From contig WHTU01000015.1 of the NCBI GenBank assembly GCA_009377575.1, positions 1 through 63,222 on the forward strand: 63,222 bases of DNA, in the 5' to 3' direction. This DNA comes from Nitrososphaeraceae archaeon. Its GTDB lineage: Archaea > Thermoproteota > Nitrososphaeria > Nitrososphaerales > Nitrososphaeraceae. How positions within the stretch are numbered: the stretch's first letter is position 1; the number at the start of each line of letters is the position of its first letter. The position numbers and the translations under genes were made by a program. The notes below the pieces were generated by a model. The model worked only from the letters and a program-made list of their open reading frames with translations, made no database searches and had not been told where the DNA came from. This document shows positions 8,792-56,898 of the stretch, in pieces.

Positions 8792-8971
8792 ATGAACCTT
8801 ATTACTCCTAGGTGAGACACTTTATGAGCTGCTTTGTTGTTTGTCGATCGACTGAAGTAAAGACCTCGCGACTTTAATAAAATTAGGCCTATATCTCCGC
8901 CGATTTTAGTGCTGGATTGCACGACATAAAAACGAATCGACTGGAAACATCACTAGTGATACTGGAATTGC

Positions 8972-9182
8972 TTGAGTGAATATGGGTATAGCGATCCAGC
9001 TACCAGGAAGGGTTTTTTTGATATTTACACGATCTTGGACACTCTTAATTATGATTACTCAGATCAATCATGGATGAGGTTTTCCTGGAATACTCACCAG
9101 CAACACGACCACCAGCTTCACAGCACAATTCTATTACTACACCAACAACAGCAATCGTGTTATGTTGGTATTCTACCCCACC
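8972..9182 (+). pseudogene. Frameshifted remnant of a secreted protein
   Basis: The plus strand reads YSDPATRKGFFDIYTILDTLNYDYSDQSWMRF in one frame and then, after a shift near 9080, ILTSNTTTSFTAQFYYYTNN and RVMLVFYPT before a stop at about 9182. The two segments join smoothly as a beta-rich extracellular domain, so one indel is the simplest explanation. No signal peptide is visible upstream. The 3' end overlaps the end of the next minus-strand gene by about 10 bp. Confidence 0.4.
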
Positions 9183-51014: not shown

Positions 51015-51272
51015 ATGAAAACAAGAACCGTTTTCACGATGATGTCTTTAATAGCCGCGTTAACGGCGGGAATACCTGCACTATTTACTGCAGCAAGCTT
51101 GTCAGCACAAGACGAGAACATAACAATGGAAGAGGCGACGAATGCGTTCGTGGCTCAAGACAACGAGACAATGGAGGAGGCTACCATTACTTTACTTGGA
51201 AATATGAGCGGTAATATGACAGCTGGTAATATGACAGCTGGTAATATGACAGCTGGTAATATGACAGTTTAA
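51015..51272 (+). CDS. Small secreted glycoprotein with GNMTA repeats
   Basis: An 85-residue secreted protein: signal peptide (residues 5-31), then two MEEAT-containing segments and a C-terminal tandem repeat of five residues, GNMTA, four times (last ends V), preceded by GNMS. Each repeat is an N-x-T glycosylation sequon, so the tail would be a dense glycan cluster. The 15-bp DNA units are almost identical, so the copy number may vary between strains. Function unknown. Confidence 0.7.
   Translation: MKTRTVFTMMSLIAALTAGIPALFTAASLSAQDENITMEEATNAFVAQDNETMEEATITLLGNMSGNMTAGNMTAGNMTAGNMTV
51210..51269 (+). repeat. Tandem 15-bp repeat inside the coding region
   Basis: Four adjoining units of GGTAATATGACAGCT, the last ending AGTT. 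The length keeps the reading frame, so gain or loss of units would alter only the number of GNMTA motifs. Confidence 0.8.
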
Positions 51273-55910: not shown

Positions 55911-55998
55911 GTCAGATGGCTGTCAGATACAAGTCAGATTACAGTCATAACTCAGTTAAATGATAGTCATTTGGAGGTTAGATAAACGTCAAACGATA
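55911..55998. repeat. Eight phased 11-bp GTYA repeats, candidate operator array
   Basis: Consecutive 11-mers start at 55911, 55922, 55933, 55944, 55955, 55966, 55977 and 55988. Each begins GTYA: three are GTCAGAT, one is GTTAGAT and the others vary after the fourth base. The period is one helical turn. The array ends 43 bp before the GTG of the HTH/coiled-coil gene and just upstream of a TATA-like CTTAAATTA (56005-56013). This fits binding sites on one DNA face. Confidence 0.7.
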
Positions 55999-56040
55999 TT
56001 TACGCTTAAATTAGCTGAAAATTATGCGAGAATCTAAATA

Positions 56041-56898
56041 GTGTCTTCTCTCATATTAGAGTTTGAGAAAATTAAATTGGGTGCTAAAATTCCATCAACA
56101 ATACGCAAACAGGTCAATAGAGAGTGGCAAGAGGGGATCCCTAGAGGCCAAATTGCAGAAAAGAATCAGATAGGAGCTGCGACTGTTAGTACTATCGTTA
56201 GCGAATGCAGGGTCCAAGAGCATCCAGATATAGACCTTCTACGGGAGGTGGCTTTAGCTCTTAGGAGAGAGAACTTGACTTTAGCCGACTTTGCTTCCGC
56301 CATGAGATTGAGGAACAAGATGATGGAATGGGGGTTACCTGAGGATCCTGAAATTGAGGATTTTATAGAGACAGTAAATGTCAACTGTTTTAAGGCGGGT
56401 ATTTCGCATGAAAAATTTATAGATAACGTTAGGTACGTCACCTCGATAGCAAATCAATTAAATTCCTCAGTTGACGGGTTGCCGTCCAAGATCCTAGAAG
56501 AACAAAAAAGGCTAAAGAGCTACAAGAAAAGAGTGAAAAGAATGCGCTCCGATTATAATGTTACAAAAAAGGATCTTGAAGACTATATAAACAAGAGACC
56601 ACTGCTTATTCAAGAAAACGAGAGACTAAAGATGGAAAATAAAGCATACGAGAGCGATGCTCTCGTTTTGAGAAAAACGAACGACCAACAATCAATAGAG
56701 CTCTTTGAGTATAGGTATAATGAAATGATTTCAGAAAATGAGCTGAAGAAATTAGATGAGAGTTGGTTACCTAATGAACACCGAATATCTGTTAAAGAGC
56801 TACATGAACTAGCACACGAGATCTACCACCATCCTGTCGAACACATTGATATAATAAGAAGGCTCAAAGCTAACAGAATCCAGAGTATGGCCGCTTAA
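56041..56898 (+). CDS. HTH domain protein with coiled coil, probable DNA-binding regulator
   Basis: A 285-residue cytoplasmic protein from GTG 56041. Residues 17-56 contain a resolvase/transposase-type helix-turn-helix (IPRGQIAEKNQIGAATVSTI). A helical middle (60-145) is followed by a coiled coil (about 150-215, EEQKRLKSYKKRVKRMRSDY) and a C-terminal helical region with VKELHELAHEIYHHPVEHID. The layout resembles a family expanded in Nitrososphaerales: HTH, then a long helical region. The array of eight 11-bp repeats lies upstream, so the protein may bind its own promoter cooperatively through the coiled coil. Function unknown. Confidence 0.75.
   Translation: MSSLILEFEKIKLGAKIPSTIRKQVNREWQEGIPRGQIAEKNQIGAATVSTIVSECRVQEHPDIDLLREVALALRRENLTLADFASAMRLRNKMMEWGLPEDPEIEDFIETVNVNCFKAGISHEKFIDNVRYVTSIANQLNSSVDGLPSKILEEQKRLKSYKKRVKRMRSDYNVTKKDLEDYINKRPLLIQENERLKMENKAYESDALVLRKTNDQQSIELFEYRYNEMISENELKKLDESWLPNEHRISVKELHELAHEIYHHPVEHIDIIRRLKANRIQSMAA

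Follow-up and report, generated by a model that had tools for sequence, protein, structure and literature searches.

The window, by which we mean the whole 63,222-nucleotide stretch of Nitrososphaeraceae DNA analysed here, carries at 55911..55998 on the plus strand a tandem array of eight 11-bp units of the form GTYAN7, six opening with GTCA and two with GTTA, which is a putative operator array of the class that we call type I below. In order the units are GTCAGATGGCT GTCAGATACAA GTCAGATTACA GTCATAACTCA GTTAAATGATA GTCATTTGGAG GTTAGATAAAC GTCAAACGATA, and reading the region in 11-bp steps confirms the eight in-phase, GTYA-initial 11-mers that a sequence-only reading had reported. When both strands of the window were scanned at periods of 8-22, the longest GTYA chain was this one (eight units, period 11) and chains at other periods had at most four units; of the two four-unit chains, that with period 22 is this array once more, and the other has a period of 15 and lies on the minus strand. 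In information content, too, the array ranks first among the window's eight-unit stretches at period 11 (10.9 bits vs a mean of 3.6, sd 0.85); Tandem Repeats Finder detects just its first 3.5 units, and an Rfam search of the region upstream of the window gene gave no match. The units had been placed on the same face of the DNA and they do lie on roughly one face, but not exactly, because a unit of 11 bp slightly exceeds one helical turn and each drifts by about 17 degrees. Elsewhere in the window, 51210-51267 is a perfect 15-bp tandem repeat (GGTAATATGACAGCT x3.9).

Downstream lies a helix-turn-helix (HTH)/coiled-coil gene at 56077..56898 on the plus strand (273 aa, stop included). A GTG at 56041 had been taken as its start; TTG 56077 (Met-Gly-Ala-Lys-Ile-Pro) is the most likely start, because most of about 70 homologues have their ATG at the aligned position, and the majority begin Met-Gly or Met-Pro there. 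The likely TATA box, TCTAAATA at 56033..56040 (+), is then at -44 to -37 from the start, a position matching that in paralogue L002 (itself preceded by eight array units) and in others. A TATA-like box had been placed right at the end of the array; the likely box begins 35 bp past the end of the eighth unit and 41 bp from the last exact GTCA.

The AlphaFold2 model of the window protein (mean pLDDT 87, pTM 0.46) contains both an HTH and a predicted coiled coil, as the sequence-only reading had expected. An N-terminal tri-helical HTH domain at residues 7-47 (56095..56217, +; helices 7-18, 23-29 and 34-47, the last being the recognition helix, with threonine at residue 39) is joined by a helical bundle and by a long helix at residues 132-217 (56470..56727, +), which is the predicted coiled coil. 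The HTH is of a generic trihelical kind, with local fold matches to Pax paired domains and to resolvase and DeoR HTHs; the Pax overlay is 0.9 A over 46 columns at a probability of 0.99, with an E-value that is not significant, and Foldseek returned no match with E < 0.001 for the protein. In Pfam only DUF1048 appeared, at E 0.03 and below its cut-off. Weak profile matches to HTH_23 (PF13384) and HTH_28 (PF13518) occur in 23/34 and 17/34 family members, respectively, homologue L027 scoring 24.4 bits vs the HTH_23 cut-off of 24.6; the window protein reaches the gathering cut-off of neither.

A search of the 3.89 Mb genome that contains the window gave seven matches, the window protein and six paralogues, of which the nearest is 60% identical. 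Relatives were present in 34 of 70 genomes of the window's family-level group, many of which carry several members, up to 14, by a profile built from alignment A1; among 300 sampled genomes of the class, the same profile found no member beyond the order. This is a multi-copy HTH plus helical-bundle/coiled-coil family confined to one archaeal order in the genomes sampled. Its proteins diverge from each other by up to 75-80%, and both copy number and presence vary widely, with related genomes that lack any member.

The arrays recur across this family. Up to 350 bp 5′ of each of 66 family starts was compared with control stretches lying 450-1100 bp upstream, and GTCA was found there at four times the control density. 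Pairs of GTCA on the same strand and 11 bp apart numbered 111 upstream vs 1 in the control, followed by distances of 22, 33 and 44, and TGAC, the reverse complement, showed distance peaks at 9, 12, 21 and 33. We call an 11-bp chain of GTCA type I, and phased TGAC at 9, 11, 12 or 13 bp, mostly 9/12, type II. By the chain rule, 21 of the 66 loci have type I arrays, 21 have type II only and three more have arrays with variant words, vs a Markov shuffle expectation over all 66 of about 0.04 (type I) and 0.02 (type II); under a slightly different rule the numbers are 23 and 22. Among 39 further loci, which were fetched by profile afterwards and not used for motif discovery, 18 have type II arrays and two have type I, one of which (L150) is a doubtful label from a loose variant rule. 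Adjacent spacings in type II arrays were divided between 12 bp (52) and 9 bp (52), so that each pair takes up 21 bp, the length of two helical turns; at L176 and L177 the 9/12 alternation runs through most of ten units. By our rule no array is present at 19/66 and 19/39 loci, roughly one third to one half of the members, and at several of these there are two units or else the word TGAAC. This word, repeated (e.g. GAACAAAATGAACAA), replaces TGAC upstream of L148, L159, L163 and L187, and perhaps represents a third operator class.

Many of the arrays consist of identical units in variable number, as would be expected if they were neutral minisatellites produced by replication slippage and had no binding role. 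Perfectly repeated arrays could, by themselves, be products of slippage; in diverged arrays such as that of the window, slippage could not maintain the phase. Across ten arrays including the window's, identity between units was 0.93/0.97/0.96/0.81 for G/T/C/A vs 0.27-0.66 for the spacer columns, falling to 0.25-0.36 in the last four columns of the window array and to near 0.25 in the outer columns where arrays are most diverged. GTCA has thus been kept between spacers that are now close to chance, so that the motif and its period are under selection, and neutral minisatellites are largely refuted by the same comparison. With the 11-bp or 9/12-bp phase and the position relative to the TATA box also recurring, and with shuffles predicting only 0.02-0.04 loci, we consider that explanation extremely improbable. 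Turnover of units is seen where three genomes share one syntenic locus, which has five GTCC-type units in the first (L459, the same as L044), mixed GTCA/ATCA units in the second (L460, L017) and GTCAAACCCTG x9 in the third (L462, L025); unit sequence and number therefore turn over, and the period and the GTC core persist.

Array type follows the downstream protein. In a tree of 99 members, made by a quick method from few columns, 19 of the 20 type I rows and the window gene fall into one clade (SH-aLRT 97), and on the same quick tree only three switches between types I and II are required. Within the type I clade, residue 39 of the recognition helix is S, T, G or N where the units read GTCA; it is R with GTCC (L044, L046 and partly L022 and L020), and D with GTCG or GCCG (L039, L040; L014 is mixed), an association that is suggestive, as it involves two subclades only. 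These two correspondences, of array type with protein phylogeny and of the fourth base with residue 39, speak for the encoded protein as binder, and the sequences strongly suggest that it is. Another regulator, either a general factor or a paralogue, might instead use the arrays as its operators throughout the family, the genes being merely targets; the GTCA core is indeed common to all arrays despite proteins that differ by up to 75-80%, and arrays occur away from family genes (see below). Both correspondences with the downstream protein, in phylogeny and at residue 39, speak against such a regulator, and we think this reading unlikely.

Four exact GTCA units at 11 bp occur in 20/70 genomes of the family-level group and in 3/398 genomes across the phylum, all three of these belonging to the family-level group that carries the proteins. 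Of 201 genomes from the order, 21 show the 9-12-9 pattern, a small number of the matches being coding repeats. When genome contigs and viral contigs were searched for the array pattern, the matches listed were mostly unrelated tandem repeats, which say nothing on exclusivity, apart from one Nitrosocosmicus contig. Some arrays stand apart from the family. In three Nitrosocosmicus-type genomes, 11-bp GTCAAATAGCC/G arrays begin at the nuoN stop codon, with 17 units in L133 (~8850-9036, -), eight in L137 (10701-10788, +) and four in L134 (8923-8966, +), and no family gene was detected within the stretches fetched; two further arrays without an adjoining family gene are in G020 and others are at contig ends. 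Arrays are therefore either not exclusively autoregulatory, or able to outlive or spread beyond their gene. At 2655-2698 of L130, on contig C10 of the window's own genome (G000), GTCAGTGTTCA is repeated four times, with a tyrosine recombinase-like ORF about 2 kb off and no family gene found nearby; and L434 (G018) and L454 (G019) have alike type II arrays and similar following sequence, with no family gene found downstream.

Genome G048 holds about eight dispersed, diverged copies of one promoter-plus-array block (L029, L053, L071, L119-L123), mostly 86-94% alike, in which similarity stops at varying places, either ahead of the downstream gene or inside it, and the gene is truncated at different points. 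Such decayed, dispersed duplicates, together with the iteron-like look of the units, are what might be expected of replication iterons belonging to an integrated element. The sequence-only reading had proposed an iteron-like element as its alternative, and the term is apt for the anatomy; a replication iteron is unsupported, because the genes are chromosomal and multi-copy and no replication or partition partner was recognised in the neighbourhoods examined. The window gene itself lies amid ordinary chromosomal genes with no replication gene recognised nearby, and no relative of its protein was found in the viral contigs. We regard the chance that these are replication iterons as next to negligible.

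Three partition systems offer the closest parallels. In ParR/parC of plasmid R1 (type II partition) the encoded protein binds 11 bp tandem direct repeats side by side and represses its own promoter (PMC5016525, PMC9426499), and the window feature likewise consists of tandem direct repeats 5′ of the gene for the putative binder. ParR, however, typically has a ribbon-helix-helix fold, works with a ParM partner and is found on plasmids, whereas the window protein is an all-helical HTH in its AlphaFold2 model and its family, with its coiled coil, is chromosomal and multi-copy with no motor partner seen in the neighbourhoods read by eye. In TubR/tubC (type III partition) an HTH-type protein on upstream direct repeats forms a filamentous complex on DNA, and its own operon is repressed (PMC5016525). 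TubR differs in being a plasmid-borne winged-helix protein with a TubZ partner. The omega repressor has a ribbon-helix-helix fold and heptad units. On pSM19035 its parS arrays of 7-10 short iterons lie over promoters, the repressor forming a helix around the DNA and unit number affecting affinity (PMC5016525); this too is a plasmid-borne partition system. We propose that the arrays described here work in the manner of these three systems, and do not class them with any of the three, since the fold differs, no motor partner was recognised by eye in the neighbourhoods examined and the genes are chromosomal and multi-copy.

That likeness also raises the reading that the arrays are centromere-like or nucleoid-organising sites, as in ParR/parC, TubR/tubC and omega/parS, and that the protein coats them. 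The large nucleoprotein superstructure so formed on the phased repeats would serve to segregate DNA or to organise the chromosome, and autoregulation would be secondary. Tandem phased repeats 5′ of the binder's gene, a coiled coil, several chromosomal copies and the orphan arrays would all suit it. Among the genes next to the window gene and to nine members, however, reading by eye we recognised no actin-, tubulin- or ParA-like motor (no ParA/ParM/TubZ-type partner), and copy number and presence vary widely, to the point that related genomes have no members; we judge this role very unlikely.

Within the archaea, Stf76 of the Sulfolobus plasmid-virus pSSVx is reported to be a winged-HTH protein of 76 aa that binds sites within its own promoter, two in number rather than a phased array (PMC4027180). 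Searches of the open-access literature on Nitrososphaera, Nitrosocosmicus and Thaumarchaeota yielded no such arrangement of a tandem- or direct-repeat operator with an HTH gene, which, given that scope, is weak evidence of absence; transcriptional regulators of the soil group receive a passing mention (PMC4084955).

We therefore return to the encoded protein as binder. The array lies upstream of the core promoter of its own gene and is conserved in homologues, as in an autoregulatory operator array, and we think it probable that this is what it is, bound side by side by the protein that the downstream gene encodes. The sequence-only reading had predicted that the protein binds its own promoter as a cooperative filament. 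The comparison proposed along with it, of regions upstream of paralogues and orthologues, turned out clearly in its favour. That the protein would bind its own promoter is supported indirectly, by the family-wide arrays, the conserved GTCA among drifting spacers, the clade-linked array type and the pairing of residue 39 with the fourth base; a filament, whose cooperativity we infer, would be compatible with the array anatomy. Each GTCA (GTYA in the window) would be the half-site for the N-terminal HTH of one subunit; units recurring about once per helical turn would align several subunits head to tail on roughly one DNA face; and the helical bundle and coiled coil would join these subunits beside the gene's own promoter.

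Promoter geometry bears on the sign of such control. Over 103 loci, matches to a TATA-like box are most frequent at -50 to -20. The gap from the end of the last TGAC to the TATA box has a median of 5 bp in type II, and in archaeal promoters the position about 5 bp before the TATA box is where TFB contacts the BRE, so that a protein-covered type II array would be placed to block TFB, which makes negative feedback the likelier sign. Type I arrays stand farther off, typically 40-65 bp from the box (median gap 65 bp); with an array about 35 bp from the TATA box, as in the window, the sign could be either activation or upstream-nucleated repression.

Taking these strands together, we suggest tentatively, as a possibility about which we have considerable doubt, that this is a lineage-specific regulator family, often with 5-14 members per genome, in which most members may be accompanied by a co-evolving array of their own, made up of GTCA half-sites that a one-sided protein filament reads at one per helical turn (in type II, two per two turns). 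Filament length would be set by the number of units, so that array slippage might tune expression, and spare arrays, such as those after nuoN, might be further targets or decoys. An uncharacterised, expanded regulator family of soil ammonia oxidisers gains a probable binding motif, a spacing rule and a promoter position, and what appeared as one odd repeat may be read as part of a family-wide regulatory code. The arrays would also form a natural series, in which growth by slippage, decay, and switches of orientation and spacing can be followed alongside change in the DNA-binding protein.
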